Source of the DNA: Cellulosimicrobium sp. Marseille-Q4280
GTDB lineage: Bacteria; Actinomycetota; Actinomycetes; Actinomycetales; Cellulomonadaceae
Assembly: GCF_943181405.1 (NCBI RefSeq)
Contig: NZ_CALPBY010000005.1
Coordinates: forward strand, 1-64,000
Length of the DNA stretch: 64,000 bases
Direction: 5' to 3'
The translations under genes and the position numbers were made by a program. Below the pieces are notes generated by a model that saw only the letters and a list, made by a program, of their open reading frames with translations, made no database searches and was not told the DNA's origin. Shown here piece after piece: positions 1 to 26,203 of this stretch. Numbering within the stretch: position 1 is the first letter of the stretch; each line of letters begins with the position of its first letter.

Positions 1-72
1 TGACCGTCCCGCCGCCCGTCCGCCGCCTGATCGCGCGGGTCGAGCGAGGACCAGGGCGAGACGACGCCGGGA

Positions 73-161
73 GGGGTGGGTGGGGCGCCGCGTCGTGGTG
101 GGCCTGGCGGGAGCCGCGAGGAACGAGCGGCGGATGGTAGACGCGGCGCCCCACCCACCCC
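73..161. repeat. 22-bp perfect inverted repeat with 45-nt loop
   Basis: Positions 73-94 are an exact reverse complement of 140-161; both arms are rich in runs of G or C. The 222 bases before the first gene hold no convincing coding region. The structure could be a transcription terminator for a gene left of the window, or a remnant of a repeat element. Its loop is longer than in a usual intrinsic terminator and no T tract follows. The arms are read directly; the role is unknown. Confidence 0.6.
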
Positions 162-198
162 GACACCCAGGACGACCACTCTCCGTCGGGCCGACCGC

Positions 199-229
199 CG
201 TACTACCTCGCGGACCCCGGTACTACCTC
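199..229. repeat. GGTAGTACC-type repeat, two units at the 3' end of the LacI gene
   Basis: Two units (199-209 and 219-229) with start-to-start spacing of 20 bases read CGTACTACCTC and GGTACTACCTC on the plus strand. On the minus strand each reads GAGGTAGTAC followed by C or G. The minus-strand LacI gene ends inside the unit at 219-229, reading AGG TAG. The same unit recurs at 7136-7298 and 25063-25160. Confidence 0.85.
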
Positions 230-1329
230 GGGGGCGGCGCGGTGCTCGCGCGGGCGACGAGGCGCGTCGGGACGAGCCGCGTCCCGGTCTCGTAGACCCC
301 CTCGCGCACCTGCCGGAGCACCTGCTCGACGCACCGGCGGCCGACCTCCGCGAAGTCCTGGTGGACCGTCGTGAGCGGTGGCAGGAACTCGCTCGACTCC
401 GGCAGGTCGTCGAACCCGACGACGCTCACGTCCTCCGGCACGCGCCGGCCCGCGTCGTGCAGGGCGCGCACGAGCCCGAGCGCCATCTGGTCGTTGGCGA
501 CGAACACGGCGGTGACGTCGTCGCGCACGGCGAGACGCCGCCCCGCCTCGTACCCGGACGTCGGCGACCAGTCGCCGCGCTCGACCGGAGGCACCTCGCG
601 CCCGGCCTCCTCGAGCGTCGAGCGCCACGCCGCGGTGCGCCGCTCGGCGGCGAACGAGTGCGCGGGCCCGGCGAGGTGGTGCACGGTCGCGTGCCCCAGG
701 TCGAGCAGGTGCCGCACGGCCTGCCGCGTCCCGTCGGCCTGGTCCGTGTCGACGACGGCGTAGCTCTCGCCCGCGTCGGAGTCCGCGACGACGACCTGCA
801 CCCCGGGCGGCAGGCTCACCTGCGCGACGTCGAGGAGGTGCACCTCCATGAGGAGGATGATCGCGTCCACCGCGAGCTCGCCGAGACGCGTGAACGCTCC
901 CCGGACGCCGTCCTGCGTGGGCGCCGCGACGGGGATGATCGTGATCGCGTAGCCCTCCGCGGCGGCCGACGTCGCGATCGCCTCGAGCGTGCGGACGTTC
1001 CCCGTGGTCGCGAGCGAGAAGAGGATCACCCCGATCGTGCGGAAGCTGCCGCTCTTGAGCGCGCGGGCCGCGCTGTTCGGCCGGTAGCCGAGCTCGCTCA
1101 TCGCCGCGAGCACCCGGGTCCGCGTGGACTCGACGACGCCGGGGTGCCCGTTGGACACGCGCGACACCGTCTGCGCCGAGACGCCGGCGACGCGTGCGAC
1201 GTCGGCCATGGACACGCGCCTCGGCGCCACCAGGCCGCCCGCCGCGCTCGCGTGCCGGCGTGAGCCGTCCGGCGGCGTCGCCGTGAGCGTCGTGGCGGCG
1301 GGGGCGTCCTCGTCGAGCCCGTCGGTCAT
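223..1329 (-). CDS. LacI-family repressor of the galactan locus
   Basis: A 368-residue LacI-type repressor. An N-terminal helix-turn-helix (around residues 40-60, MADVARVAGVSAQTVSRV) is followed by a periplasmic-binding-protein-like effector domain ending in the usual VVGFDDLPES and LTTVHQDF segments. The start at 1329 is chosen because a GAGGACGAGGACG stretch precedes that ATG; an in-frame TTG at 1374 would add 15 residues. It is divergent from an ABC sugar importer and two perfect 14-nt palindromes lie between them, so it probably represses that operon until a sugar, likely a galacto-oligosaccharide, binds. The stop codon lies inside a GAGGTAGTAC repeat. Family is certain; the ligand is inferred from neighbours. 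Confidence 0.93.
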   Translation of the reverse strand: MTDGLDEDAPAATTLTATPPDGSRRHASAAGGLVAPRRVSMADVARVAGVSAQTVSRVSNGHPGVVESTRTRVLAAMSELGYRPNSAARALKSGSFRTIGVILFSLATTGNVRTLEAIATSAAAEGYAITIIPVAAPTQDGVRGAFTRLGELAVDAIILLMEVHLLDVAQVSLPPGVQVVVADSDAGESYAVVDTDQADGTRQAVRHLLDLGHATVHHLAGPAHSFAAERRTAAWRSTLEEAGREVPPVERGDWSPTSGYEAGRRLAVRDDVTAVFVANDQMALGLVRALHDAGRRVPEDVSVVGFDDLPESSEFLPPLTTVHQDFAEVGRRCVEQVLRQVREGVYETGTRLVPTRLVARASTAPPPR

Positions 1330-1402
1330 CGTCCTCGTCCTCGTGGTCCGGTCGTGCGGGAAGGTGCGCGGCAAGCATGCCCTGCGAGATCACCCTAGGC
1401 GA

Positions 1403-1416
1403 TGTTTGCGCAAACA
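1403..1416. promoter_or_regulatory. LacI operator 1 of the galactan locus
   Basis: TGTTTGCGCAAACA is a perfect 14-nt palindrome in the divergent gap between the repressor and the importer. Its centre is 34 bp from that of the second copy, about three helical turns, which would suit binding of two dimers on one face. Confidence 0.85.
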
Positions 1417-1436
1417 CCGAGCGTCGTGCATGCTGA

Positions 1437-1450
1437 TGTTTACGTAAACA
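1437..1450. promoter_or_regulatory. LacI operator 2 of the galactan locus
   Basis: TGTTTACGTAAACA is a perfect 14-nt palindrome that differs from operator 1 only at the two bases flanking the central CG. It sits 47 bases before the first importer gene and has the CG centre typical of LacI-family sites. Confidence 0.85.
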
Positions 1451-1496
1451 CCCGGGGACGACCGACGTCCCCCGCCCCCGACGACGAGGAAGCAGC

Positions 1497-2438
1497 ATGA
1501 CGACGACGTCCCCACCCGTGGTGGTCTCCGACGTGCCACCGGTCGACGGCCCCTCCTCCCGGCCCGCGCGCCGCCGACGGCGCTCGTGGATCGGCTGGGG
1601 CTTCGTGGGCCCGTTCATGGCCGTCTTCGCGCTCGTGTTCCTCGCACCGATCGCGTACTCGATTTACCTGAGCCTGTTCCGCACGCAGATGGTCGGCGGG
1701 ACGCAGTTCGTCGGCTTCGAGAACTACGCCCGCGCCTTCTCCGACCCGCAGTTCTGGTCGGGCGTCACGCGCGTCGGGCTGTTCCTCCTCGTGCAGGTGC
1801 CGATCATGCTCGGCATCGCGCTGCTCGTGGCGCTGGCGATCGACAGCGGACGCCTGTACGGGAAGAACTTCTTCCGCATCTCGATCTTCCTGCCGTACGC
1901 CGTCCCCGCCGTCGTCGCGACGCTCATGTGGGGCTTCATGTACGGCACGCGGTTCGGCCTCGTCGGCAACATCAACGACGCGCTCGGGACGTCGATCCCC
2001 AACCCGCTGTCGCCCGAGTGGGTGCTCCTCGCGATCGGCAACATCGTGACCTGGGAGTTCGTGGGCTACAACATGCTCATCTTCTACTCGGCGCTGCGGG
2101 TCATCCCGACCTCGCTCTACGAGGCCGCCGAGCTCGACGGCGCGAGCCAGTGGCAGGTCGTCCGGTCGATCAAGATCCCCGCGATCCGGGGCTCGCTCGT
2201 CATCGCGACGATCTTCTCGATCATCGGCTCGTTCCAGCTCTTCAACGAGCCGAGCATCCTGCAGAGCCTCGCGCCCAACGCCATCACGACGTACTTCACC
2301 CCGAACCTGTACGCGTACTCGCTGTCGTTCTCCGGCCAGCAGTACAACTACTCGGCGACCGTCGCCATCATCATGGGCGTCCTCACCATGATCGTGGCCT
2401 ACGTCGTCCAGCTGCGCGGCATGCGCAAGGAGGCCTGA
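1497..2438 (+). CDS. ABC sugar importer permease, MalF type
   Basis: A 313-residue inner-membrane permease of the binding-protein-dependent transport family. After a charged cytoplasmic N-terminus there are about six membrane segments. The cytoplasmic EAA loop, seen as YEAAELDGASQWQVVRSIKIP around residues 205-225, contacts the ATPase. It pairs with the MalG-type permease three bases downstream and with the lipoprotein that follows. No ATPase gene lies in the operon, as is usual in actinobacteria where one MsiK-like ATPase serves many importers. Substrate is probably a galactose-containing oligosaccharide, judged from the GH42 and GH30 genes. Confidence 0.93.
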   Translation: MTTTSPPVVVSDVPPVDGPSSRPARRRRRSWIGWGFVGPFMAVFALVFLAPIAYSIYLSLFRTQMVGGTQFVGFENYARAFSDPQFWSGVTRVGLFLLVQVPIMLGIALLVALAIDSGRLYGKNFFRISIFLPYAVPAVVATLMWGFMYGTRFGLVGNINDALGTSIPNPLSPEWVLLAIGNIVTWEFVGYNMLIFYSALRVIPTSLYEAAELDGASQWQVVRSIKIPAIRGSLVIATIFSIIGSFQLFNEPSILQSLAPNAITTYFTPNLYAYSLSFSGQQYNYSATVAIIMGVLTMIVAYVVQLRGMRKEA

Positions 2439-2440
2439 CC

Positions 2441-3388
2441 GTGACTGCGACGACTCCCACCAACCCGCACCCGTCCGTCGTGCCCGTCGTCGGCCCGCCG
2501 CCGCGCAAGCCCGTCCGGCTGCGCTCGCGCCCGCACAGCGTCTCCACGCCCCGCCGCAGCACCCTGCTCACGGTCCTCAGCGGCGTCGTGCTCCTCTACG
2601 CGCTCGTCCCGCTGTTCTGGCTCTTCGTCAACGCGACGAAGACGCAGTCGAGCCTGTTCGCGTCGTTCGGCCTGTGGTTCAGCGGCGACTTCGCGCTGTT
2701 CGACAACATCGCCCGGACCCTGACCTACGACGGCGGGATCTTCGGCCGCTGGTTCGCCAACACGGTCCTGTACGTCGTGGTCGGTGCGGGCGGCGCCACG
2801 TTCCTCGCCGTGCTCGGCGGCTACGCCCTCGCGAAGTTCGACTTCCCCGGGAAGCGCGGGGTGTTCGCGACGGTCATCGGCGCGGTCGCCGTGCCGGGCA
2901 CCGCGCTCGCCGTCCCGACGTTCCTCATGTTCAGCCAGATGGGCCTGACGAACACGCCGTGGGCCGTGATCATCCCGTCGCTCATCTCGCCCTTCGGCCT
3001 CTACCTCATGTGGGTCTTCGCGGCCGAGGCGATCCCCACCGAGCTGCTCGAGGCCGCGCGCGTCGACGGGTCGAACGAGTTCCGCACGTTCTTCCAGGTC
3101 TCGCTGCCGCTGCTCGCGCCCGGGATCGTCACCGTGCTGCTCTTCACGATGGTCGCGACGTGGAACAACTACTTCCTGCCGCTCATCATGCTCAAGGACC
3201 CCACCTGGTACCCCCTGACGCTCGGCCTCAACGCGTGGAACGCCCAGGCCGCGACCGCGGGCGGCGAGGCCATCTTCGACCTCGTCATCACCGGGTCGCT
3301 GCTGACGATCCTGCCGCTGATCGCCGCCTTCCTGCTCCTCCAGCGCTACTGGCAGTCCGGCCTCGCGGCCGGGTCCGTCAAGGAGTGA
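2441..3388 (+). CDS. ABC sugar importer permease, MalG type
   Basis: A 315-residue second permease. The GTG at 2441 is chosen because it begins just after the preceding stop and gives the usual family length; the frame stays open further upstream without a good ribosome site. A proline-rich cytoplasmic N-terminus of about 45 residues precedes six predicted membrane segments. The EAA loop is LLEAARVDGSNEFRTFFQVSLP. The C-terminus ends GLAAGSVKE, the common ending of MalG-type carbohydrate permeases. It forms the channel with the MalF-type partner. Confidence 0.93.
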   Translation: MTATTPTNPHPSVVPVVGPPPRKPVRLRSRPHSVSTPRRSTLLTVLSGVVLLYALVPLFWLFVNATKTQSSLFASFGLWFSGDFALFDNIARTLTYDGGIFGRWFANTVLYVVVGAGGATFLAVLGGYALAKFDFPGKRGVFATVIGAVAVPGTALAVPTFLMFSQMGLTNTPWAVIIPSLISPFGLYLMWVFAAEAIPTELLEAARVDGSNEFRTFFQVSLPLLAPGIVTVLLFTMVATWNNYFLPLIMLKDPTWYPLTLGLNAWNAQAATAGGEAIFDLVITGSLLTILPLIAAFLLLQRYWQSGLAAGSVKE

Positions 3389-3489
3389 GCCCCCGGGTCC
3401 CGTGGCGCACGGCCGCGCGACCGCACCACCCCTCTGGCACGCATCCCCCGCACCACCATCCGTCTGACGACGAAGTGAGAGGAACCCTC

Positions 3490-4836
3490 ATGTCCATCCG
3501 CACCCCCCGCACCCTGCGGGCCGTCGCCGCCACCGGCGTCCTCGCCCTCGGCCTGGCCGCGTGCAGCTCCGGCAGCGGCGACGACGCCGGCTCCGGTGCC
3601 GACGGCGGCTCCGCCGACGACGTCGCCGCTGCTCTCGAGGAGGGCGGCTCGCTCACCGTGTGGGCCTGGGAGCCCACGCTCGAGCAGGTCGTCACCGACT
3701 TCGAGGCCGAGTACCCGGACGTCGACGTCGAGCTCGTCAACGCCGGCACCGGCAACGACCAGTACACGGCGCTGCAGAACGCGATCGCCGCCGGCTCGGG
3801 CGTCCCCGACGTCGCGCAGGTCGAGTACTACGCGCTCCCGCAGTTCGCGCTGTCCGACGCCGTCGCGGACCTCTCCGCGTTCGGCGCCGCCGACCTGGAC
3901 GGGACCTTCACGCCCGGCCCGTGGAGCGCCGTCCAGCAGGGCGAGGGCGTCTACGGCCTGCCGATGGACTCCGGCCCCATGGCCCTCTTCTACAACGAGG
4001 AGGTCTTCACGCAGCACGGCATCGAGGTGCCGACGACGTGGGACGGCTTCGTCGAGGCCGCCCGGGCTCTGCACGCGGCAGACCCGAACGTCTACATCAC
4101 CAACGACACGGGTGACGCGGGCTTCACGACGTCGCTCATCTGGCAGGCCGGCGGCCAGCCGTTCCAGGTCGACGGCACCGACGTGACGGTCGACCTCGCG
4201 GACGAGGGCAGCACGCAGTTCGCCGAGACGTGGCAGACGCTCATCGACGAGGACCTCCTCGCCCCCGTGAGCTCGTGGAGCGACGAGTGGTACCAGGGCC
4301 TCGGCAACGGGACCATCGCGACCCTCGCGATCGGCGCGTGGATGCCGGCCAACCTCGAGTCGGGCGTGCCCGACGGCGCCGGCAAGTGGCGCGTCGCCCC
4401 GCTCCCGCAGTGGGAGGAGGGCGCGTCCGCGAGCGCCGAGAACGGCGGCTCCGCGCTGTCCGTGCCGGCCGCGAGCGAGAACCAGGCGCTCGCCTACGGC
4501 TTCCTCGAGTACGCGAACGCCGGCGACGGCGTGCAGGCCCGCGTCGACGGCGGCGCGTTCCCGGCCACGACGGCCGAGCTCGAGTCGGACGAGTTCCAGG
4601 GCTACGAGTCCGAGTACTTCGGCGGCCAGAAGATCAACGAGGTCCTCGCGCAGTCGGCGGCCGACGTCGTCGAGGGCTGGTCGTACCTGCCCTTCCAGGT
4701 CTACGCGAACTCGATCTTCAACGACACGGTCGGCCAGGCGTACGTCTCGTCGACCACGCTGACCGAGGGCCTGCAGGCCTGGCAGGACGCGTCCGTGAAG
4801 TACGGCACGGAGCAGGGCTTCACCGTCAACGAGTGA
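3490..4836 (+). CDS. Extracellular sugar-binding lipoprotein of the galactan importer
   Basis: A 448-residue family 1 solute-binding protein. The signal peptide ends in a lipobox (LGLAAC, cysteine near residue 23), so the mature protein is lipid-anchored outside the membrane. A Ser/Gly/Asp-rich linker follows, then the binding fold beginning with SLTVWAWEPTLEQVVTDFEAEYPDV. The ATG at 3490 follows a GAGAGGAACC ribosome site. It captures the sugar for the two permeases upstream. A strong hairpin lies just after its stop, which may give it higher mRNA stability than its neighbours, as the binding protein is needed in excess. The ligand is inferred to be a galactan fragment. Confidence 0.94.
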   Translation: MSIRTPRTLRAVAATGVLALGLAACSSGSGDDAGSGADGGSADDVAAALEEGGSLTVWAWEPTLEQVVTDFEAEYPDVDVELVNAGTGNDQYTALQNAIAAGSGVPDVAQVEYYALPQFALSDAVADLSAFGAADLDGTFTPGPWSAVQQGEGVYGLPMDSGPMALFYNEEVFTQHGIEVPTTWDGFVEAARALHAADPNVYITNDTGDAGFTTSLIWQAGGQPFQVDGTDVTVDLADEGSTQFAETWQTLIDEDLLAPVSSWSDEWYQGLGNGTIATLAIGAWMPANLESGVPDGAGKWRVAPLPQWEEGASASAENGGSALSVPAASENQALAYGFLEYANAGDGVQARVDGGAFPATTAELESDEFQGYESEYFGGQKINEVLAQSAADVVEGWSYLPFQVYANSIFNDTVGQAYVSSTTLTEGLQAWQDASVKYGTEQGFTVNE

Positions 4837-4842
4837 GGCACG

Positions 4843-4874
4843 CCGGTGGCCGGGCCACGAGGCCCGGCCACCGG
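4843..4874 (+). terminator. Strong hairpin after the binding-protein gene
   Basis: Positions 4843-4856 pair perfectly with 4861-4874 (14 bp, four-base ACGA loop). It lies between the binding-protein gene and the GH42 gene on the same strand, with no T tract, so it may act as a partial terminator or as a 3' stabiliser. Equivalent hairpins follow the other three binding-protein genes of the window. Confidence 0.75.
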
Positions 4875-4931
4875 TCCCCGCCCGACGGCGCACCTCTCGC
4901 GCCACCCGAGCACCATCCGAGGAGCACCCCC

Positions 4932-7142
4932 GTGTCGACCACGACCGACCGACCCGTCCCCCACCGCTGGCTGCGCCGCCCCGGACCCCACGCGCCGTCG
5001 GGCACGCCCGCCGCGACCGGGGCCCCCGGCACGACCGGCGGGAGCGCCGAGCACGCGCCGTCGGGCCTGTCCTACGGGGCGGACTACAACCCGGACCAGT
5101 GGCCGCGCGAGGTGTGGGACGAGGACGTGCGCCTCATGCGCGAGGCCGGCGTGACCGTCATGTCGCTCGCGATCTTCTCGTGGGCGCGGATCCAGCCGAC
5201 CGAGGACACGTGGGACTTCGCGTGGCTCGACGAGATCATGGACCTGCTGCACGAGAACGGCATCACCGTCGACCTCGCGACGGCGACCGCGTCGCCGCCG
5301 CCGTGGCTCACGACGAAGCACCCCGAGATCCTGCCGCAGACCCGCACGGGCGAGACGCTGTGGCCCGGCGCGCGCCAGCAGTGGCGCCCGACGTCGCCGG
5401 TGTTCCGCGAGCACGCGCTGCGCCTCGTCGAGCGCATGGCCGAGCGCTACGGCGACCACCCGGCGCTCGTCGCGTGGCACGTCTCGAACGAGCTGGGCTG
5501 CCACAACGTCTACGACTACAGCGACGACGCGGCGTCCGCGTTCAGGTCCTGGCTGCGCGAGCGGTACGCGACCCTCGACGCGCTCAACGCCGCGTGGGGC
5601 ACCGCGTTCTGGTCGCAGCGCTACAGCGCGTGGGAGCAGGTCCTGCCGCCGCGCCTCGCCGCGTCGCACCCGAACCCCACGCAGCAGCTCGACTTCAAGC
5701 GGTTCTCGTCCGACGCGCTGCAGGACTACCTGCGCGCCGAGGCCGCGATCCTGCGCCGTGCGACCCCCGACGTCCCCGTGACGACCAACTTCATGGTCAT
5801 GGGCGAGACGAAGGGCATGGACTACGCCGCGTGGGCCGACGAGCTCGACTTCGTCTCCAACGACCACTACGTGCTCCCCGGGCCGCAGGCGCTCGACGAG
5901 CTGTCGTTCTCCGCGAACCTCACCGGCGGCATCGCCCGGCACCGCCCGTGGTTCCTCATGGAGCACTCCACGAGCGCCGTGAACTGGCAGCCGGTGAACG
6001 TCGCGAAGAAGCCGGGCGAGCTCGCGCGCGACTCCCTCACGCACGTCGCGCACGGCGCGGACGCGGTCTGCTACTTCCAGTGGCGCCAGTCCGCCGCGGG
6101 CGCGGAGAAGTACCACTCGGGGATGGTCCCGCACGCGGGCGAGCACTCGCGCCTGTTCCGTGACGTCGTCGCGCTCGGCGCGACGCTGCGCGACCTCGCG
6201 CCCGTCGCGGGCAGCGAGCAGAAGCCGTCGCGCGCCGCGATCGTCTTCGACTGGGACTCGTGGTGGACGTCCGAGCTGGACTCGCACCCGACGGACCGGC
6301 TGCGGTACCGCCAGGAGGCGCTCGACTGGTACTCCGCGTTCCTCGCGCTCGGCGTGCGCGCGGACGTCGTGCCGGTCGCGTCCGACCTCACGGGGTACGA
6401 CGTCGTCGTGGCACCCGTGCTGCACGTGGTCCCGGCGCCGCTGCGCGACCGTCTCACGACGTTCGTCGAGGGCGGCGGGCACCTCGTGACGACGTACTTC
6501 TCGGGCGTCGTCGACCAGGACGACCACGCGTGGCTCGGCGGGTACCCCGGCGCGCTGCGCGACCTGCTCGGCGTGCGCGTCGAGGAGTTCTCGCCGCTGC
6601 TGGACCACGAGTCCGCGACCGTCGAGCTCGGTGGCGAGCAGCTCGAGGCGACACTGTGGACCGAGCCGGTGGACGTCGTCGACCCCGACGTCGAGGTGCT
6701 CGGCTGGTACAAGACCGGCGAGCAGGCGGGACGCGCCGCCGTGACGCGCCGGGCCGTCGCTCCGACCGGCCGGGCCGGGGAGCGCGCCGGGTCCGCCGCG
6801 TACGTCTCGACGCGCTTCGGTCGCGAGGGTCTCGTGCCCGTGCTCGCGCGCCTGCTCGACGACGCGGGCGTGCGCAGCGAGCTGCCCGCCGCGGTCCGCG
6901 GCCAGGTCGAGCTCGCGGTCCGCACCGACGGGACCGACGACTTCTGGTTCCTCGTCAACCGCACGGCCCAGCCGGTCGAGGTGCCCGACGTCGCGGGCGA
7001 CGTCCTCGCGGGCCGCCGCCTCGCGCCGTCGGGCACGACGGGAACGGCGAGCACGGCGAGCACGAGCGACGTCCCCGGCGCTCTCCTGCTCGACCCGCGC
7101 GGTGTGGCGGTCGTCCGCCGCCCGGCAGACCCGGCGAGGTAG
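4932..7142 (+). CDS. GH42 beta-galactosidase
   Basis: A 736-residue glycoside hydrolase family 42 enzyme that removes terminal beta-galactose. Domain order is a TIM barrel (about 45-420), a trimerisation domain (about 430-640) and a small C-terminal beta domain. The acid/base is Glu187 in HVSNELG and the nucleophile Glu344 in FLMEHST. The barrel begins with the family hallmark YGADYNPDQWP. No signal peptide is seen, so it should act in the cytoplasm on imported galacto-oligosaccharides. The GTG at 4932 follows GAGGAGCACCCCC and gives an unusually long Pro/Gly/Thr-rich leader of about 45 residues. The gene ends AGG TAG inside the first unit of a repeat array. Confidence 0.93.
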   Translation: MSTTTDRPVPHRWLRRPGPHAPSGTPAATGAPGTTGGSAEHAPSGLSYGADYNPDQWPREVWDEDVRLMREAGVTVMSLAIFSWARIQPTEDTWDFAWLDEIMDLLHENGITVDLATATASPPPWLTTKHPEILPQTRTGETLWPGARQQWRPTSPVFREHALRLVERMAERYGDHPALVAWHVSNELGCHNVYDYSDDAASAFRSWLRERYATLDALNAAWGTAFWSQRYSAWEQVLPPRLAASHPNPTQQLDFKRFSSDALQDYLRAEAAILRRATPDVPVTTNFMVMGETKGMDYAAWADELDFVSNDHYVLPGPQALDELSFSANLTGGIARHRPWFLMEHSTSAVNWQPVNVAKKPGELARDSLTHVAHGADAVCYFQWRQSAAGAEKYHSGMVPHAGEHSRLFRDVVALGATLRDLAPVAGSEQKPSRAAIVFDWDSWWTSELDSHPTDRLRYRQEALDWYSAFLALGVRADVVPVASDLTGYDVVVAPVLHVVPAPLRDRLTTFVEGGGHLVTTYFSGVVDQDDHAWLGGYPGALRDLLGVRVEEFSPLLDHESATVELGGEQLEATLWTEPVDVVDPDVEVLGWYKTGEQAGRAAVTRRAVAPTGRAGERAGSAAYVSTRFGREGLVPVLARLLDDAGVRSELPAAVRGQVELAVRTDGTDDFWFLVNRTAQPVEVPDVAGDVLAGRRLAPSGTTGTASTASTSDVPGALLLDPRGVAVVRRPADPAR

Positions 7143-7298
7143 TACCCCGGTCCTCCGAGGTAGTACCCCGGTCCTCCACCGGGGTACTACCTCGCGGGCC
7201 CCCCGTACCACCTCGCGGAACCACCGTTCTACCTCGCGAGACCCCCGTACTACCTCGCGCAACCACCGTTCTACCTCGCGAGACCCCCGTACTACCTC
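7136..7298. repeat. Array of eight GGTAGTACC-type units with 21-bp period
   Basis: Two forward units (7136, 7157) and six inverted units (7183, 7204, 7225, 7246, 7267, 7288) each start exactly 21 bases after the previous one of the same orientation. The core GGTA-G-TACC is itself a quasi-palindrome. The first forward unit supplies the TAG stop of the GH42 gene. Units 7157-7172 and 7178-7193 form a perfect 16-bp hairpin with a five-base loop. A 39-nt block is repeated exactly at 7219-7257 and 7261-7299. This array fills most of the gap before the GH30 gene. Confidence 0.92.
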
Positions 7299-7376
7299 GG
7301 CACGAAGACCCCCGCGGGAACGACCCGCACCCGGCCCCGCGCCGGATCGCAGCGACGCGAAGGAGGTGGCTCAGGG

Positions 7377-10300
7377 ATGAGCCGAACACCTGACGAGCGA
7401 CAGCACGACTCGACAGCACGAGGAGGTCCGGCCCGCCGGCCGGCACGACGGGCGGGAGCACGGCTCGGCGCAGGGATCGGGGCCGGGGCGCTCGTCGCCG
7501 GCTGCGCCCTCGCGGCGCTGCCGGCCCAGGCGGCACCTGCCGTCACCGCCTCCTCCGTCGCGGCGACGGGACTGGTAGGCGCCACGACGGCGGCCGCCGC
7601 GGACGTCCCCGGCGTCACCGTGACCCCCGACCCGTCGTACGCGGGCGAGCCGTTCGAGGGCTGGGGCACGAGCCTCGTGTGGTTCGCCAACGCGACCGGC
7701 GACTACCCGGACGAGATCCGCGACCGCCTGGCCGACATGGTCTTCGGCGACGAGGGTCTCAACCTCAACATCGCGCGGTACAACGTCGGCGGCGGCAACG
7801 CGCCCGACGTCCCCGACTACCTGCGCGCGGGCGGCGCCGTCGACGGCTGGTGGAAGGCGCCCGAGGGCACCACGCGCGAGGACGTCGACTGGTGGGACCC
7901 GGAGAACCCGGACCACTGGGACCCCGACGCCGACCAGACGCAGCGCTGGTGGGTCGACCGCATCAAGGACGAGGTCACGCACTGGGAGACGTTCAGCAAC
8001 TCCCCGCCGTGGTTCATGACCGTGAGCGGCTACGTCTCGGGCGGGTTCGACGCGAACGCGGACCAGCTCAAGACCCAGAGCGTCGACGACTTCGCCGCTT
8101 ACATGGTGGGCGTCACCGAGCGCCTCGAGGAGGCGCACGGGATCGACGTCGCCACGGTCGACCCGTTCAACGAGCCGAACACCGACTACTGGGGCACCCA
8201 GCTCGGCACCGACGGCAACCCGACCGGGGGCCGCCAGGAGGGTGCCCACATCGGCCCCGAGCTGCAGCAGCAGGTGATCCCCGCGCTCGCCGAGGCGCTC
8301 GACGGTTCGTCGACCGACGCGGTGATCTCCGCGATGGACGAGACCAACCCGGGCACGTTCGCGCGGAACTGGAACTCCTACCCGCAGTCCGTGCGCGACC
8401 AGGTCTCCCAGCTCAACGTCCACACCTACGGCACGGGCCAGCGCACCACGGTCCGCGACATCGCCAAGGGCGAGGACAAGCCGCTGTGGATGAGCGAGGT
8501 CGGCGGCAACTGGAGCTCGACCGGCCAGGACTTCGAGACCATGGAGTCCGGCCTCGGCAGCGCGCAGCACATCGTCGACGACCTGCGCGAGCTCGAGCCG
8601 TCGGCGTGGGTCTTCTGGCAGCCGGTCGAGGACTACGACAACATGGCGCCCGGCGGCGAGAGCGCGAACGGCATGAACTGGGGCGAGATCCAGATCCCGT
8701 TCGACTGCACGGCCACCGACACGCTCGAGACGTGCCCCATCTACACGAACACGAAGTACTGGGCGACCCAGAACTTCACGCACTACATCGAGCCGGGCGA
8801 CTCTCTCGTCCGCTCGGACGACGCGAACAGCACCGCCGCGGTCTCCGCCGACGGCGAGCAGGCGACCGTCGTGCACGTCAACGCCACCACCGCGGAGCGC
8901 GCCGTCACGCTCGACCTGTCGAAGTTCGGTGCGGTCGAGTCCGATGCGACCGTCACCCCCGTCGTGACCAGCACGGCGGGCTACCTCGTCGAGGGCGAGC
9001 CGGTCTCCGTCTCGGCCGACGACCAGGGCGCGAGCGCCACGCTCACCGTCCCGGCCGAGTCCGTGACGACGTTCGTCGTGGACGGCGTCTCCGGCGTCGC
9101 CGAGGACGCGGCCCTCGTCCAGGACGGCCACGTGTACCGCCTCGACGGCGTGCAGTCGAACCGTTCGCTCGCCCCGGCGGCGACCGGCGACGGTGTCGTC
9201 ATCCGCACCGACGCCGCGGTCGCCGAGCAGGCGTGGGAGCTCACCGCTCTGGGCGCGCCCGAGGGCTCGGGCTCGCACCGCTCGCGCTACGCGGTGACGA
9301 ACGCGGCGACGGGCGAGCAGCTCGCCGTGGCCACGGACACGTCGCCGGTGCTGACGGAGGCTCCCGCCGACGTCGCGGACACGCCCCTGACCGCGCAGTG
9401 GATCCTCTCCACGACCGGCGACGGCACGTACACGCTCGTCAACGCGTCGTCGAAGACCCTGCTCGAGGTGGGCGGTCAGGCGACCGCCGACGGCTCGCCC
9501 GTCGGGACGTACCTCGCCAACTCCGGGATCAACCAGCGCTGGCGGATCGTCGACGAGACGGTGCTCGGCACGGAGCCCGTCGACGCGTTCACCACGCCGG
9601 GCACCGCGCCCGGGCTGCCCGCCACCGTCACGCCCGTCTACCGCGACGGCGCGCGCGGCGAGCTCCCCGTCACGTGGGAGCTCCCCGGCGACGACGCGTG
9701 GGCGTCTCCCGGGACCGTCGAGGTCCCGGGGACAGTCGCGCTGCCCACGGGCGGCACGCTGGAAGCCACGGCGACGGTCGTCGTGGACACGCTCGACCGC
9801 ACGCTGCCGGCGCGCGCGAAGTCGTACGCGGGCGGCACGCCCGCGCTCCCGACGACCGTCACCGCCGTCGCCGCGGGCGGCGCCGAGGTCCAGCGCCCCG
9901 TGACGTGGGACGCGGCCCCGGACGGCGCGTTCGACGAGGTCGGCGTGGTCGAGCTCGCCGGGACCGCCGACGCGGGCACCGTGGACGGCACACCGACGAC
10001 CCTGCCCGCCGTCGTGCGGGTCCAGGTCACCGAGGCCGCGTCCGCGAACGGCGCGCTCGCCACGGGCACGACCGCGTCCGCGACGTTCACCGAGCCCGGC
10101 TACTCCGTCGCCGGGGTCGTCAACGGCAACCTCACCGACAAGGCGTGGTCGAACTGGCTGTCCGGCACCAAGCGCGCCTCCGACACGCTCACGGTCACGC
10201 TGCCGGCGGAGCGCGACGTCACCGGCGTCGTGACCCGCTTCTGGAAGGACGGGTCGAGCGCGACCTGGGCGCAGTCCGTGCAGCTCCAGGCGCTCGTCGG

Positions 10301-10994
10301 CGGCACGTGGACCGACGTCGGGGCACCGGTCACGGTGGACGCGTCCCCGGACGGCCCGGCACCGGTCGTCGAGGTCCCCGCGGGCGTGCGCACCGCGTCC
10401 GTGCGCGTGGTCCTCGCGGCACGGGCGAACACGCACATGGTGGTCTCCGAGATCGAGGTCCTCGCCAAGGTGCCGGGCACGGGGACCGACGCCGCGGCGT
10501 CGGGCATCACCGTGGACGGCGAGCCGCTCGCGGGCTTCGACCCCGAGGTCACCGCGTACGAGGTGGCGGCCGAGGGCGACGTGCCCGAGGTCGCGGCCAC
10601 CGCGCACGACCCGTACGCGAGCGTCGCGGTCGAGCCGGCCGACGCGGTCCCGGGCGTCACGACCGTCCGCGTGACCGCCGAGGACGGCACCGAGCGCGCC
10701 TACACGCTCTCGTGGACCGACGGCGCGCAGGCGCCCGTGACCGCGACCGCCGAGGTGCGCTGCCTCGCCGGCAGGGCGTACGTCGCGGTCCGCGCGACCA
10801 ACGACGGCGCGGCGCCGATCGATGTGACGATCACGACGCCCTACGGCTCGCGGTCGTTCGCCGACGTCGCCCCCGGGTCGAACGCGTACCAGTCGTTCGC
10901 GGCGCGCTCCGCGTCCGTCCCGGCCGGGGCGGCCCAGGTGACGGTCGTCGGCCACCAGCCGGTCGACGTCACCTACGACGCGCGCACCTGCTGA
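7377..10994 (+). CDS. Secreted multidomain GH30 enzyme, probable endo-beta-1,6-galactanase
   Basis: A 1205-residue secreted enzyme. A long signal sequence with a twin-arginine-rich n-region precedes the GH30 barrel (about 80-480), with acid/base Glu266 in DPFNEPN and nucleophile Glu374 in WMSEVGG. A closing beta domain follows (480-565), then a ricin-B-like lectin domain (about 575-720), two group-4 bacterial Ig-like domains (735-890), an F5/8 C-type carbohydrate-binding domain (893-1035), a cadherin-like beta sandwich (1038-1110) and a C-terminal domain with paired cysteines. The closest family is subfamily 5, which cuts beta-1,6-galactan side chains of arabinogalactan proteins. That fits the GH42 gene and importer upstream. 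AGGAGGTGG precedes the ATG. Confidence 0.9.
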   Translation: MSRTPDERQHDSTARGGPARRPARRAGARLGAGIGAGALVAGCALAALPAQAAPAVTASSVAATGLVGATTAAAADVPGVTVTPDPSYAGEPFEGWGTSLVWFANATGDYPDEIRDRLADMVFGDEGLNLNIARYNVGGGNAPDVPDYLRAGGAVDGWWKAPEGTTREDVDWWDPENPDHWDPDADQTQRWWVDRIKDEVTHWETFSNSPPWFMTVSGYVSGGFDANADQLKTQSVDDFAAYMVGVTERLEEAHGIDVATVDPFNEPNTDYWGTQLGTDGNPTGGRQEGAHIGPELQQQVIPALAEALDGSSTDAVISAMDETNPGTFARNWNSYPQSVRDQVSQLNVHTYGTGQRTTVRDIAKGEDKPLWMSEVGGNWSSTGQDFETMESGLGSAQHIVDDLRELEPSAWVFWQPVEDYDNMAPGGESANGMNWGEIQIPFDCTATDTLETCPIYTNTKYWATQNFTHYIEPGDSLVRSDDANSTAAVSADGEQATVVHVNATTAERAVTLDLSKFGAVESDATVTPVVTSTAGYLVEGEPVSVSADDQGASATLTVPAESVTTFVVDGVSGVAEDAALVQDGHVYRLDGVQSNRSLAPAATGDGVVIRTDAAVAEQAWELTALGAPEGSGSHRSRYAVTNAATGEQLAVATDTSPVLTEAPADVADTPLTAQWILSTTGDGTYTLVNASSKTLLEVGGQATADGSPVGTYLANSGINQRWRIVDETVLGTEPVDAFTTPGTAPGLPATVTPVYRDGARGELPVTWELPGDDAWASPGTVEVPGTVALPTGGTLEATATVVVDTLDRTLPARAKSYAGGTPALPTTVTAVAAGGAEVQRPVTWDAAPDGAFDEVGVVELAGTADAGTVDGTPTTLPAVVRVQVTEAASANGALATGTTASATFTEPGYSVAGVVNGNLTDKAWSNWLSGTKRASDTLTVTLPAERDVTGVVTRFWKDGSSATWAQSVQLQALVGGTWTDVGAPVTVDASPDGPAPVVEVPAGVRTASVRVVLAARANTHMVVSEIEVLAKVPGTGTDAAASGITVDGEPLAGFDPEVTAYEVAAEGDVPEVAATAHDPYASVAVEPADAVPGVTTVRVTAEDGTERAYTLSWTDGAQAPVTATAEVRCLAGRAYVAVRATNDGAAPIDVTITTPYGSRSFADVAPGSNAYQSFAARSASVPAGAAQVTVVGHQPVDVTYDARTC

Positions 10995-11008
10995 CGACCC
11001 GTACCACC

Positions 11009-11055
11009 ACGACGGCGGATCGCCGGGGACGAGCTCCCCGGCGGTCCGCCGTCGT
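11009..11055 (+). terminator. Intrinsic-type terminator after the GH30 gene
   Basis: A 21-bp stem (11009-11029 with 11035-11055) has one G-T wobble and a five-base loop, 15 bases after the GH30 stop. It closes the galactan locus. No T run follows, as is common in high-GC actinobacteria. Confidence 0.85.
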
Positions 11056-11063
11056 GCTGCTCG

Positions 11064-11112
11064 GCGGACCGCCGGACAGACCGCCGGACAGACCGCCGGA
11101 CGGACCGCCGAC
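11064..11112. repeat. 12-bp tandem repeat CGCCGGACAGAC
   Basis: About three and a half degenerate copies of a 12-base unit lie directly behind the terminator stem. They share the CGGACCGCC words of the stem, so they probably arose by slippage of terminator sequence. No coding role is visible. Confidence 0.7.
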
Positions 11113-11244
11113 GGGCCCTCCGAGGGCTGCCGGGACACAATTCGGACACGCCCGGGCGGTACGCACGCGCGAGGGAGGCCGACATTGCGTAGCGTAGGCA
11201 CTTGCGCCCTGGATCGTCCGGGGCGCGCTGAAGGAGGCGCGTCG

Positions 11245-11550
11245 GTGGCCGAGAGCGGTGTACGGGTGCAGGACGACGGGACCCTGTGGGTCATGTACGG
11301 CGAGATCGACGCCGCGGTCCAGGCGCGGCACGAGGACGACCTGCAGCGTCGCGCACAGGCCGCGACCGCTCAGATCCGCATCGACCTGACCGACGTGACG
11401 TTCATGGACTCGGGCGGCCTGCGGCTGCTGTACCACGCGGCGACCGCGGGCGAGACGCCACCCGCGCTCCTCGGCACGCCGCGCCGCGTCCGCGACCTGC
11501 TCGAGCTGAGCGGCGTCGACTCGCTGTTCCAGGTCGAGGACTCAGCGTGA
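11245..11550 (+). CDS. STAS-domain anti-anti-sigma factor
   Basis: A 101-residue single STAS domain of the SpoIIAA/RsbV type. The phosphorylatable serine is Ser56 in the VTFMDSGGLRLL motif. Unphosphorylated protein binds an anti-sigma kinase and frees the sigma factor; phosphorylation by the kinase blocks this. The GTG at 11245 is chosen because AGGAGG lies seven bases upstream; an ATG at 11185 has no ribosome site. The next gene, an ATP-binding anti-sigma protein, overlaps its stop by four bases, so the pair is translationally coupled. The phytochrome-phosphatase convergent with them is the obvious candidate to dephosphorylate Ser56. Confidence 0.88.
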   Translation: MAESGVRVQDDGTLWVMYGEIDAAVQARHEDDLQRRAQAATAQIRIDLTDVTFMDSGGLRLLYHAATAGETPPALLGTPRRVRDLLELSGVDSLFQVEDSA

Positions 11551-12023
11551 GCATCGCCGCCGCGGACGTCCCGGTCCGTTTCGTCGAGATCGGCTCGTGG
11601 CGTCTCGCCACGCTCGCCGATCTCGGCGATCTGCGCGGGCACGTGCACCGCACGCTGACGGGTGCGCCCCTGCCGCCCGACCGTCACCTCGACGCCGCCC
11701 CGGAGCGCATCGTGCTCGTCGCGAGCGAGCTCGCCACGAACGCGCTCCGCCACGGACGGCCGCCGGCGCTCGTCCGGCTGCTCAGCGACGGGCGCGAGTT
11801 CGTCGTCGACGTCGTCGACCACTCCCCCGAGCGCCCGCCCGTCATCGACCCGCACCGCCCGCCCGGCGCCGGCGGCTTCGGCCTGCAGCTCGCGCGTCGC
11901 GCAGCCCGCGAGGTCGGCTGGTTCACCACAGCCACGGGCGAGAAGCACGTCTGGGCCCGGTTCGAGGTGCCCCTGTTCCGCGCCGGGACGGGCGCCCGGA
12001 GCGCTCTCGCACTCCTCGCCTGA
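11547..12023 (+). CDS. ATP-binding anti-sigma factor kinase, RsbW-like
   Basis: A 158-residue GHKL-fold ATP-binding protein. The N box is VASELATNALRHG (around residues 58-70), followed by a G1-like VVDHSPERPP near 90 and a glycine-rich lid GAGGFGLQLARR near 117-128. It is expected to bind and inhibit a sigma factor and to phosphorylate the STAS partner encoded immediately upstream, with which it overlaps by four bases (GTGA). No cognate sigma factor of the SigB/SigF type lies in the window, so the target is encoded elsewhere. It could instead be a free-standing regulatory ATPase, a less likely reading given the context. Confidence 0.86.
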   Translation: MSIAAADVPVRFVEIGSWRLATLADLGDLRGHVHRTLTGAPLPPDRHLDAAPERIVLVASELATNALRHGRPPALVRLLSDGREFVVDVVDHSPERPPVIDPHRPPGAGGFGLQLARRAAREVGWFTTATGEKHVWARFEVPLFRAGTGARSALALLA

Positions 12024-12065
12024 ACGGCAGCCCTCGCGCCTCGCCCGGGCAGGAGCACGGTCGAG

Positions 12066-12080
12066 CCCGACAGGGTCGGG
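12066..12080. terminator. Small hairpin between convergent genes
   Basis: CCCGAC and GTCGGG pair over a three-base loop in the 87-base gap between the anti-sigma gene and the convergent phytochrome gene. It is short and lacks a T tract; a shared terminator role is a guess. Confidence 0.4.
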
Positions 12081-12086
12081 CGCGCC

Positions 12087-12122
12087 GTCCCGTCAGGCCT
12101 CGCGGTCCCGTCAGGCCTCGCG
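12087..12122. repeat. 18-bp perfect tandem duplication over the phytochrome stop codon
   Basis: The 18 bases at 12087-12104 are repeated exactly at 12105-12122. The second copy contains the last codons and TGA stop of the minus-strand phytochrome gene, so the duplication yields a second in-frame TGA 18 bases later. Confidence 0.85.
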
Positions 12123-14384: not shown

Positions 14385-14402
14385 GCCTGTCTCCGTCCGC
14401 CG

Positions 14403-14424
14403 CCGTGGCACAGCGCTGCCACGG
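14403..14424 (-). promoter_or_regulatory. Hairpin just upstream of the phytochrome start
   Basis: CCGTGGCA pairs perfectly with TGCCACGG over six bases. It would lie in the leader if translation starts at 14384. The 280-base gap to the ABC ATPase gene also has a 7-bp inverted repeat (CCTGGGC 14441-14447 with GCCCAGG 14469-14475). No promoter is clear. Confidence 0.4.
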
Positions 14425-14664
14425 AAAGATCGACGGATCACCTGGGCTCGAGGATCCGAGTCGAACGGCCCAGGCTACCGCCTGCGACCCCGTTTCTCCG
14501 CCATCCGGACCGGGCGTCTCCCACGGACGCGACGGTTCCCCGCCCCGCCACCTCGTTGCGAGGACCGGGTGACCGGTGCCACGGAACTCCGCGGTAGCGT
14601 CGTACGTCGGACGGGCGGGAGGAACGGAGCGCCGTCCGCCCACGAACCGAGCCTGAAGGTGACC

Positions 14665-15471
14665 ATGAGCACGACAGTCGACCTGCCCGAACCGATCCTG
14701 CGCGCGACGGGCCTCTCCGCAGGGTACGCGGGACCCGACGTCGTCCACGGCATCGACCTCGAGGTCGTCCCGGGCACCGCGCCCGTCGGGATCGTCGGCG
14801 AGTCCGGCGCGGGCAAGTCGACGGTCGTGCGTGCGCTCGTCGGGCTCGTGCGGCCGACCCGCGGTCACGCGACCTTCCAGGGTCGCGCCGTCTCGAAGCT
14901 CTCGCGCCGCGACAAGAAGACGTTCAAGGCCGAGGTGCGCCGCGTCTCCCAGGACGGGCTCGCAGGGGTGGGGATCGACCCGCGCTGGACCGTCGACCGT
15001 GCACTGTCGGCCGCGCTCACCGAGGCGCGGAAGGCGGGCCGCGCGAACGGGCGGCCGGTCGCGGACCTCCTCGCCGACGTGTCGCTCGAGCCTCGGTACG
15101 CGCCGCGCACGATCCACTCGCTCTCCGGCGGTGAGAAGCAGCGGCTCGCGCTCGCCGTCGCGCTCGCCACGCGGCCGCGCGCGCTCCTGCTCGACGAGCC
15201 CCTCACGGCCGTCGACCCGGCGATGCGCGGCGACGTCGTGCGCCGGCTCGGCGAGGCGACGCAGGCGCTCGGCACCGCCGTGCTCCTCGTGTCGCACGAC
15301 CTCGAGCTCGTCGAGCGCCTGTGCCCCACGGTGCACGTGCTCGCGGACGGCACGTTCGTCGCGTCGGGCGCGCTGCGGGACGTGTTCGCCGGCACCGCGC
15401 CGGGGTCCGACCATCCCGCGGTCCGCGGGCTCGCGGAGGCCGCCCCGCTCGCCGTCCAGCGCTTCCGCTGA
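14665..15471 (+). CDS. Orphan ABC transporter ATPase, peptide/nickel (Dpp/Opp) type
   Basis: A 268-residue ATP-binding subunit with Walker A GESGAGKST (near residue 50), the signature LSGGEKQR, Walker B ALLLDEPLTA and the switch histidine in VSHDLELVE. Sequence style is that of oligopeptide or nickel importer ATPases (DppF/OppF/NikE), which normally work with a second ATPase, two permeases and a binding protein. None of these is next to it: a phytochrome lies divergently on one side and a DGPF protein on the other. The ATG at 14665 is preceded by only a weak GAAGGTGACC site. It may energise a transporter encoded elsewhere. Confidence 0.85.
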   Translation: MSTTVDLPEPILRATGLSAGYAGPDVVHGIDLEVVPGTAPVGIVGESGAGKSTVVRALVGLVRPTRGHATFQGRAVSKLSRRDKKTFKAEVRRVSQDGLAGVGIDPRWTVDRALSAALTEARKAGRANGRPVADLLADVSLEPRYAPRTIHSLSGGEKQRLALAVALATRPRALLLDEPLTAVDPAMRGDVVRRLGEATQALGTAVLLVSHDLELVERLCPTVHVLADGTFVASGALRDVFAGTAPGSDHPAVRGLAEAAPLAVQRFR

Positions 15472-24530: not shown

Positions 24531-25069
24531 GCGCGACGCCGCCCGACGACACCTCCGCGACCGGCCGCCCCGCCGCGGCGGGAACCCTCTCGGCGACGGA
24601 CCGCGCGCACCTGGCGGAGGCGCTCCGGATCGCCCGGGCGACGCTCGCCGACGGCAACCGGCCGTTCGGCGCGGTGCTCGTCGCGGCCGAAGGCCGGGTG
24701 CTCGCGACCGGTCGCAACGCCGCCGCGCAGACGGGCGACCCGACGTCGCACGCCGAGCTGGACGCGGTCCGGGCCGTCACCGCCGCCGACCGCCCCGCGG
24801 TCGCAGGCGCCACGATGTTCGCGAGCGGCGAGCCCTGCCCGATGTGCGCGGCCGCCCTCGTGTGGTCGGGCGTCGGCCGCATCGTGTTCGGCACCGCCGC
24901 ACCGGACATCCGCGCCGTCGTGCCCGGGTCGCCGTCGTTCACGCTGCGCTGCGACGACGTGGTCCGGGCCTCCGACGCGACGGTCGCCGTCGTCGGGCCG
25001 GTGCTCGGCGACGAAGGCCTGGCGCCGTTCCGCGAGCTCGCTGCCGGCCTGGCCCGACCGCCCAGGTAG
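24527..25069 (+). CDS. Nucleoside/nucleobase deaminase of the cytidine-deaminase fold
   Basis: A 180-residue zinc deaminase. Zinc ligands and catalytic glutamate are seen as SHAELDAV (near residue 77) and SGEPCPMCAAALVWSG (near 97-112), the HAE and PCxxC motifs of guanine- and adenosine-type deaminases. It starts inside the cyclodeaminase-like gene (ATGA overlap). Given the BMP importer upstream, a purine or pterin-like base is a likely substrate; guanine deaminase is the best single guess. The gene ends AGG TAG inside the first unit of a repeat array shared with the convergent aldo/keto reductase gene. Confidence 0.9.
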   Translation: MSATPPDDTSATGRPAAAGTLSATDRAHLAEALRIARATLADGNRPFGAVLVAAEGRVLATGRNAAAQTGDPTSHAELDAVRAVTAADRPAVAGATMFASGEPCPMCAAALVWSGVGRIVFGTAAPDIRAVVPGSPSFTLRCDDVVRASDATVAVVGPVLGDEGLAPFRELAAGLARPPR

Positions 25070-25160
25070 TACCGCAGTCCACCGAGGTAGTACCGCAGGC
25101 CCGCGAGGTAGTACCGCTGTCAGGACTGCGGTACTACCTCGCGGACTGCGGTACTACTTC
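25063..25160. repeat. Five-unit GGTAGTACC-type array shared by two convergent stop codons
   Basis: Three forward units (25063, 25084, 25105; 21-base spacing) and two inverted units (25130, 25150; 20-base spacing) fill the gap between convergent genes. The first unit supplies the TAG of the deaminase gene and the last, slightly diverged, supplies the TAG of the aldo/keto reductase gene. Positions 25102-25117 and 25128-25143 make a perfect 16-bp stem with a ten-base loop, a plausible bidirectional terminator. Confidence 0.92.
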
Positions 25161-26203
25161 GCGAGAGCCGTCTCGATCGCGTCCTGCTCGTCGTCGGTCA
25201 GAGCGGGCGCGGAGAGTGCGGCGACGCTGTTCTCGAGCTGGCGGACGCTGCTCGCCCCGACGAGCGCGGAGGTGACGCGCTCGTCGCGCAGCACCCACGT
25301 GAGCGCGAGCTGTGCGAGCGACTGCCCGCGCCCCTGCGCGATCTCGTTCAGCGTCCGGGCCGTCGTGAGGTACTCCTCGTCGAGGTTGTCGGCGGACAGG
25401 AACGGCGAGTCGGGCCGTGCGGCCCGCGAGCCCTCGGGCGCGAACCCCGAGAGGTAGCGGTCGGTGAGCAGGCCCTGCTGGAGCGGCGAGAAGACGATGG
25501 TCCCGATGCCGAGCTCGCCCACGACGTCGAGCAGCGACTCCGACTGCACGCCGTCGTAGCGGTCCTCGTGCGCGGCGTCCTCGACATGACGGTTGAGCAT
25601 CGAGTAGCTCGGCTGGTGGATGAGCAGCGGCGTGCCGAGGTCGGCGAGGATCGCCGCGGCCTCGCGCGTACGCGCCGGCGAGTAGTTCGAGACGCCGACG
25701 TACAGGGCCTTGCCCTGCTGGACCGCGTCGTGCAGGGCCCGCATGGACTCCTCGAGCGGCGTGCTCGGGTCCGGGCGGTGGTGGTAGAAGACGTCGACGT
25801 GGTCGAGGCCCATCCGCTGCAGCGACTGGTCGAGCGACGACAGCAGGTACTTGCGCGACGCGCCGTCGCCGTACGGGCCGGGCCACATGTCGTACCCCGC
25901 CTTGGACGAGATGACGAGCTCGTCGCGGTACGCCCCCAGGTCCTGCGCGAGGTGCCGCCCGAAGTTCTCCTCGGCGGAGCCGTAGGGCGGGCCGTAGTTG
26001 TTGGCGAGGTCGAAGTGCGTGATCCCGAGGTCGAACGCCCGCCGGAGCACGGCGCGCTGGGTCTCGAACGGGTTGACGTCCCCGAAGTTGTGCCAGAGGC
26101 CGAGCGAGATCGCGGGCAGGTCGAGGCCGCTGCGCCCTGTCCGCCGGTAGGTCATCGAGTCGTAACGGTCGTCGGCGGCGACATAGCGCGGGATGAGGGG
26201 CAT
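25154..26203 (-). CDS. Aldo/keto reductase, glyceraldehyde-3-phosphate reductase (YghZ) type
   Basis: A 349-residue NADPH-dependent reductase of the AKR14-like group. The catalytic set is visible as Asp/Tyr in FDLANNYGPPYGSAEENFG, Lys in VISSKAGYDMWPG and His in VFYHHRPDP. The N-terminus MTYRRTGRSGLDLPAISLGLW matches the YghZ/MgrA group, which reduces L-glyceraldehyde 3-phosphate and methylglyoxal. The ATG at 26203 gives the family N-terminus; a longer frame upstream is proline/arginine-rich and unlikely. It is expressed alone or behind the epoxide hydrolase gene. Its stop lies in the repeat array it shares with the deaminase gene. Confidence 0.92.
   Translation of the reverse strand: MPLIPRYVAADDRYDSMTYRRTGRSGLDLPAISLGLWHNFGDVNPFETQRAVLRRAFDLGITHFDLANNYGPPYGSAEENFGRHLAQDLGAYRDELVISSKAGYDMWPGPYGDGASRKYLLSSLDQSLQRMGLDHVDVFYHHRPDPSTPLEESMRALHDAVQQGKALYVGVSNYSPARTREAAAILADLGTPLLIHQPSYSMLNRHVEDAAHEDRYDGVQSESLLDVVGELGIGTIVFSPLQQGLLTDRYLSGFAPEGSRAARPDSPFLSADNLDEEYLTTARTLNEIAQGRGQSLAQLALTWVLRDERVTSALVGASSVRQLENSVAALSAPALTDDEQDAIETALAK

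Follow-up and report, generated by a model that had tools for sequence, protein, structure and literature searches.

Short tandem repeats at gene ends in Cellulosimicrobium and related bacteria

As described in passages of PMC3733652 and PMC2817692, GTAG-tagged REPs and BIMEs are short, intergenic repeats with many copies near gene ends, which form facing pairs and carry GTAG within a conserved part. According to a passage of Di Nocera 2013 (PMC3733652), the GTAG termini of REPs often give a TAG stop to the flanking ORFs. In the passages on their distribution, GTAG repeats are named for Proteobacteria, Cyanobacteria, Chloroflexi and the PVC group, and the word "Actinobacteria" does not occur in the main text of that paper (PMC3733652). 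The MIRUs of mycobacteria, as a passage of PMC12548453 describes, are inserted at start codons and contain an ORF that is coupled to the gene.

Here, we describe a family of short repeats found in a stretch of 64,000 nucleotides (the window) from Cellulosimicrobium sp. Marseille-Q4280. The unit has the form C-GAGGTAG-NN-CC followed by a linker, 19-21 bp in total. At the 3' ends of genes the units are arranged head to tail in arrays; in some cases inverted arrays face these, and in some a large hairpin lies between. The repeat family is real, is spread over part of one bacterial family, that of Cellulosimicrobium and Isoptericola, and is partly explained.

The present repeats resemble GTAG-tagged REPs and BIMEs in being short and numerous, in their facing pairs and in having GTAG within a conserved part, and their arrays likewise are intergenic (140 of 147), stand at gene ends and lend TAG (57 stops). 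GTAG REPs have the motif at one end of the unit; here GTAG is conserved but lies inside CGAGGTAG, where the preceding bases are equally conserved. Whereas the GTAG REP is a palindromic stem-loop of 20-40 bp, the present unit has no stem-loop of its own: a near-palindrome over 9 bases is seen only in the TAC dialect, GAGGTAGAGCC and GAGGTAGGACC are not palindromic, and pairing arises between facing units. Head-tail dimers are rare among GTAG REPs, but the head-to-tail arrangement prevails in the present arrays. The GTAG REP has a RAYT gene in its genome, whereas Y1_Tnp (PF01797, the only mobilising family sought) was found in 0 of the 17 genus genomes here, with 5 of the 14 named controls positive; mobilisation by a RAYT thus has no support. 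The dialects, the periods of 19-21 and the host group also set the present family apart. Since three tested features of the GTAG REP failed, we did not file the family as a GTAG REP. It works like a REP/BIME family, and because stop lending by a repeat is already in print for GTAG-tagged REPs, it is a variant in this respect.

Like the MIRU (PMC12548453, in the passage concerned), the family is an interspersed actinobacterial repeat adapted to the codons of the genes beside it; unlike the MIRU, its units are at stops and have no ORF. The DUS of Neisseriaceae also have clade dialects around a fixed part, and passages of PMC3630211 tie inverted DUS pairs to terminators. In contrast to DUS, the present units form tandem arrays and have a lower copy number. 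The Sal-box terminator arrays of eukaryotic rDNA are tandem short protein-binding units behind the gene. They share with the present arrays the tandem short units behind a gene, but come from another domain of life.

Arrays in the window and in the genome

Direct reading of the letters placed GAGGTAGTACC units at 199-229, 7136-7298 and 25063-25160 (Table 1). The spacing is 21 bp, and 20 bp at two places (199/219 and 25130/25150). All four adjoining genes, which encode LacI, GH42, a deaminase and an aldo/keto reductase, take their stop codon from the TAG of a unit. At two sites the units flip to inverted copies (7157/7183 and 25105/25130), and both flips give strong hairpins. The preliminary description had claimed the units, their spacing, the lent stops and the hairpin-forming flips, and all were confirmed. 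When GGTAGTACC was searched with at most one mismatch, 25 matches were found in the window, near-palindromic units being scored on both strands, and shuffled sequences gave a mean of 3.4 and a largest count of 9. Eight TAG stops were present among the 51 complete genes called in the window, four of them supplied by units. The inverted array at 7187-7299 is a 42-bp doublet repeat in which TAC and AAC units alternate with 94% matches. No match over the gathering threshold of Rfam was detected in the window, and none up to E 1 in positions 1-300.

Table 1. Repeat units and hairpins in the window
Feature	Position	Strand	Basis or remark
LacI-end unit 2 (GAGGTAGTACG)	199..209	-	sequence
LacI-end unit 1	219..229	-	provides the stop codon of LacI 223-1329 (-): TAG 223-225
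Two forward units	7136..7167	+	provide the stop codon of GH42 4932-7142 (+): TAG 7140-7142
Six inverted units, 21 bp apart	7183..7298	-	sequence
Three forward units	25063..25115	+	provide the stop codon of the deaminase 24527-25069 (+): TAG 25067-25069
Two inverted units	25130..25160	-	outer unit (GAAGTAG) provides the TAG stop codon of the aldo/keto reductase 25154-26203 (-)
Hairpin from the forward-inverted flip	7134..7200	+	-45.1 kcal/mol, RNA z -6.0
Long hairpin filling the gap between two convergent stops	25061..25165	+	-69.2 kcal/mol, RNA z -9.4
Large hairpin (type A) adjoining the LacI-end units	61..175	.	RNA z -6.5

The preliminary description had taken the repeats for a mobile or selected element that inserts at gene ends, or for an array of protein-binding sites. 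Its view of gene-end repeats that double as stop codons, with hairpin-forming inverted copies, was supported and holds across the genome. In the own genome of the window (Cellulosimicrobium, 4.86 Mb, 12 contigs), GAGGTAGTAC has 137 copies versus 6 for the reversed motif, so that the copies are not few. Nor are they random with respect to gene ends: 17 array TAGs of this genome coincide with a gene stop and 0 lie 1-9 bases off. A total of 219 units (137 exact, 82 near) were found in 52 stretches and the window.

Eight genome groups were then scored with genes from a codon-usage caller, not from annotation. Among 147 arrays of at least two units (146 distinct, one being counted twice through overlapping stretches), 140 were intergenic and 7 lay inside called genes. 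Arrays were held by 64 of 237 convergent gaps, 50 of 749 tandem gaps and 5 of 233 divergent gaps (convergent versus divergent, Fisher p 7e-16); the regions were selected for holding units, so these rates are valid for array-rich regions, and overlapping stretches (L118/L119 and L125/L126, about 6 kb each, and L131/L132, 0.1 kb) doubled some gaps and stops in the denominators but no unit stop. Head-to-tail neighbours were commoner than flips in each of the eight groups. Facing arrays run forward and then inverted, with one exception among the counted flips. In tandem gaps, the units had no preferred orientation in the own genome (36 same and 38 opposite), while in C. marinum the counts were 34 and 12, respectively.

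A second repeat family, type A, is a large hairpin with a variable stem and a conserved inner part (CTCGTTCCTCG...CTCCCGCCAG). Besides window 61-175, it was found in L071, L076, L105, L124, L130, L135, L142, L199, L201 and L203. By eye, at least 9 of the 19 spacers longer than 45 bp between forward and inverted arrays hold a nested type A hairpin (L071, L076, L124, L130, L135, L199, L201, L203 and L205). The inner motif is present in 35 of 220 family genomes and in all 17 of the genus (reversed control, 0), and the hairpin is not in Rfam. An element with cargo between the facing arrays was considered and rejected, as just one of the 19 spacers overlaps a called gene (for a NUDIX protein). A third type of large hairpin (CTCGGTGCTCGGGCTGCCGCGCC ... 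ACGCCCTTCGCATCCGA) was seen by eye at gene ends in L080, L101, L122 and L205. Several G006 contigs begin with the type A motif in their first 60 bases, the L119 spacer has N within the hairpin, and the start of the window and contig adjoins a type A hairpin. Type A hairpins may break assemblies.

Dialects, lent stop codons and turnover of units

Tandem pairs of GAGGTAGNNCC were detected in 41 of 221 family genomes and 9 of 25 genera, and the reversed pattern gave one hit. This relaxed pattern overturned the view, derived from dialect-bound searches, that most Cellulosimicrobium are without arrays. In an order-wide draw of 396 genomes, six genomes of other families matched with 1-3 hits each (nine in total), and the reversed control had two hits in other families. 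A facing pair in G475 may be genuine, and the remaining matches in other families may be chance or unrelated.

Dialects other than GGTA-G-TACC, namely GAGGTAGAGCC, GAGGTAGAACC or GAGGTAGGACC, occur in other species, and the listed g20 genomes have mostly GGAC or GGGC with a 19-bp period. The preliminary description had pointed to the near-palindrome GGTA-G-TACC and to 21 bp as two helical turns. Because the two N letters and the period vary by clade, neither is general: the near-palindrome is confined to the TAC dialect, and the Isoptericola loci mostly have a period of 20, G190 of the genus g20 one of 19.

The end of the aldo/keto reductase gene was compared in 16 of the 17 genus genomes (all but G014, whose match fell into two pieces). 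A unit-like TAG stop was found in 13 of the 16 (11 GAGGTAG, one GAAGTAG and one GAGATAG). TAA in a unit-like word was found in G002 and G006, and G010 had no unit at this end. The letters after TAG were TAC in G000, G012 and G016, TGC in G001, and AAC or AGC in the other nine. In the tree of this gene, 11 genomes of the ARC dialect group in a single supported clade, from which G003 is separate. The dialect needs 2 changes on the tree, and 12 and 13 of 500 shuffles were as low; the labels were taken from the unit at this gene and from GAGGTAGTACC counts, and G010 was labelled ARC because of its 2 TAC copies versus 4 tandem pairs. By eye, the region beyond this array varies between species (L178, L180, L182, L185 and L186, compared with window 25063-25160). 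To the eye, the varying flanks look as if arrays were frequent rearrangement breakpoints.

In the eight groups, 1252 stops were called (187 TAG, 1055 TGA and 10 TAA), and the TAG of a unit was the stop in 57 genes. In G190, no unit TAG was used as a stop (41 TGA stops). Of 25 own-genome ends where the stop is not part of a unit, 12 have the first unit's TAG within the next 10-20 bases. Under a looser rule (7 of 9 fixed letters; seven groups, repeats removed), 91 genes end in a unit-like TAG, and 60 of the 91 have another unit behind it. A unit-like stretch lies upstream within the coding part in 17 of the 91 genes, although some of these stretches are weak (6-7 of 9 letters) and may be chance. 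In six genes (L114, L120, L127, L134, L148 and L211), the upstream unit has 8 of 9 letters and the stop is exactly 21 bp on. The missing letter is always the T of TAG, the first unit reads GAGGAAG or GAGGGAG, and the frame crosses one unit and ends in the next. In these genes the stop has probably moved to the second unit. The GH42 ortholog of G011 is alike, with GAGGAAC and then PRNNPATAR-stop. In 20-bp arrays, a gene can cross the upstream unit in another frame and end in the next unit, as in Isoptericola L055 and L049 and in L199 of G008. The role as TAG stop would be an exaptation and not the reason for the existence of the repeat.

G007 and G008 are 98-100% identical near the compared arrays (98.3 and 99.3% over L219/L222) and differ by whole units at two sites (2 versus 5 and 4 versus 9). 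In the five alignable locus pairs, all array sites are common to both, so that none shows a fresh insertion; a sixth pair, L218/L221, could not be aligned. Therefore, unit number seems to change faster than occupancy. Many gene ends have arrays in both the own genome and C. marinum, with differing linkers and numbers, the sharing being biased upward because the C. marinum sample was chosen by its own exact units. Arrays were present on one side only at L081, L093, L097 and L106. At L081, the C. marinum ortholog has, by eye, a type A hairpin where the array would stand.

The identity between arrays in six groups was 0.84-0.94 in the 11-base core and 0.43-0.64 in the linker, the core value being inflated by a unit finder that seeds on nine core letters and admits near units with up to 3 mismatches. 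The linkers have some consensus too, GGT in Cellulosimicrobium. Whole-unit copying alone would keep core and linker alike, and therefore the core would be constrained or read by something. A mini-hairpin within the unit (RCC-NN-GGT) was rejected as an explanation. Its A changes to G in a dialect while the partner mostly stays T, so there is no covariation, and the GGT consensus is absent in Isoptericola and G190.

Explanations for the arrays

We judge it slightly better than an even chance that the arrays are a REP/BIME-like family of short intergenic repeats at gene ends, which grows by slippage and has a core read by a putative factor. Hairpin templating would make and correct the inverted half of facing arrays. 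Copies would persist at gene ends, where expansion would do little harm and the TAG would close the reading frame. A sequence-specific factor, which may be an enzyme of mobilisation or a protein that binds DNA or RNA, may read the core, which would evolve with it; the conserved core against drifting linkers is the main argument for such a candidate recogniser. Against this reading stand the lack of Y1_Tnp in the 17 genus genomes, of fresh insertions in the alignable G007/G008 pairs and of the flip-pair advantage outside the TAC dialect, the partial consensus of the linkers, and the age and stability of the aldo/keto reductase site (13 of 16), a pattern equally compatible with selection for function. 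A REP-like family seems not to have been described before in these bacteria: in the literature searched, no paper on these repeats was found by title, and the exact string occurred only in papers titled on unrelated subjects (human cells and disease, fly genetics, Streptococcus pneumoniae and pneumonia assays).

The arrays might instead be selected sites at which a DNA- or RNA-binding protein would mark the ends of genes, with dialects arising by co-evolution, and serve as a roadblock, in insulation of convergent genes, or in gyrase or nucleoid binding; we regard this as possible but doubtful. The contrast of core and linker suits such sites, as do the near agreement of dialect with the gene tree, the favoured convergent and avoided divergent gaps, and the aldo/keto reductase gene end, which is kept in 13 of 16 genomes though the flanks beyond the array differ by eye in several. 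However, the unit number is labile, some species are array-poor by tandem pairs (G003 0, G014 2 and G010 4), and a period of 19-21 bp gives no fixed helical phase. To our knowledge, there is no known binder of the array units. Along the same line, we suggest only tentatively that CGAGGTAG-NN-CC arrays at the ends of transcription units throughout a bacterial family may mark gene ends in a way that forms a class of its own, with the mark incorporated into the stop codon of each marked gene and read by a putative lineage-specific factor that would co-evolve with the two dialect letters.

The preliminary description had also proposed that the units double as terminators. That the arrays are transcription terminators or hairpins stabilising 3' ends, with the stop at the foot of the stem as part of the design, seems unlikely to us. 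The arrays do stand at gene ends, and two window sites fold strongly (z -6.0 and -9.4), but the LacI-end unit pair alone has no strong fold (z 0.18). In six groups, 43 of 133 arrays of at least two units had both orientations close by and 90 had one only, arrays parted by long spacers being scored as one-sided; with these 90, and with several arrays standing behind a separate hairpin, a terminator role is not general. Such another strong hairpin precedes the arrays at, for example, L076, L084, L204 and L222, and by eye at L205, and makes it less likely that termination at these places depends mainly on the array. Innermost facing pairs of the TAC dialect are near-perfect, 0.95 identical (n=14) versus 0.80 for tandem neighbours (n=290), whereas this advantage was absent in other dialects (AGC 0.83, n=3; Isoptericola 0.66, n=2), where pairs are few. 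By median z, folding is stronger in convergent gaps that hold arrays than in those that lack them for G000 (-4.7, n=16, versus -2.3, n=29), G012 (-4.4, n=10, versus -2.5, n=31), G008 (-6.0, n=1, versus -4.0, n=3) and G190 (-4.9, n=2, versus -2.5, n=3), but not for G002 (-2.4, n=2, versus -3.6, n=3) or Isoptericola (-2.7, n=9, versus -3.7, n=3); more than 9 gaps of each kind were available in G000 and G012 only. No U tract accompanies the arrays: window 1-15000 has a single terminator-like site (shuffles 1.8), which lies away from the arrays, and no hairpin with a T tract was found at the arrays there, while 25063-25160 was read by eye only.

Uptake signals kept by biased DNA uptake are very improbable, for although the fixed part with dialects, the inverted pairs and the gene-end position resemble DUS of Neisseriaceae as passages of PMC3630211 describe them, the present units form head-to-tail arrays at 19-21 bp and number 137 here versus 1543-3770 per genome in the DUS examples given there.

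With the REP/BIME-like reading, an actinobacterial family gains a REP-like system that lacks the usual transposase and has clade dialects. Comparison of the dialects makes it testable what keeps 100 or more short repeats of one genome alike without a known mobiliser. Differences in unit number between close genomes are possible typing markers. Stops lent by a repeat and shifted one unit along the array are a simple route to new protein C-termini.
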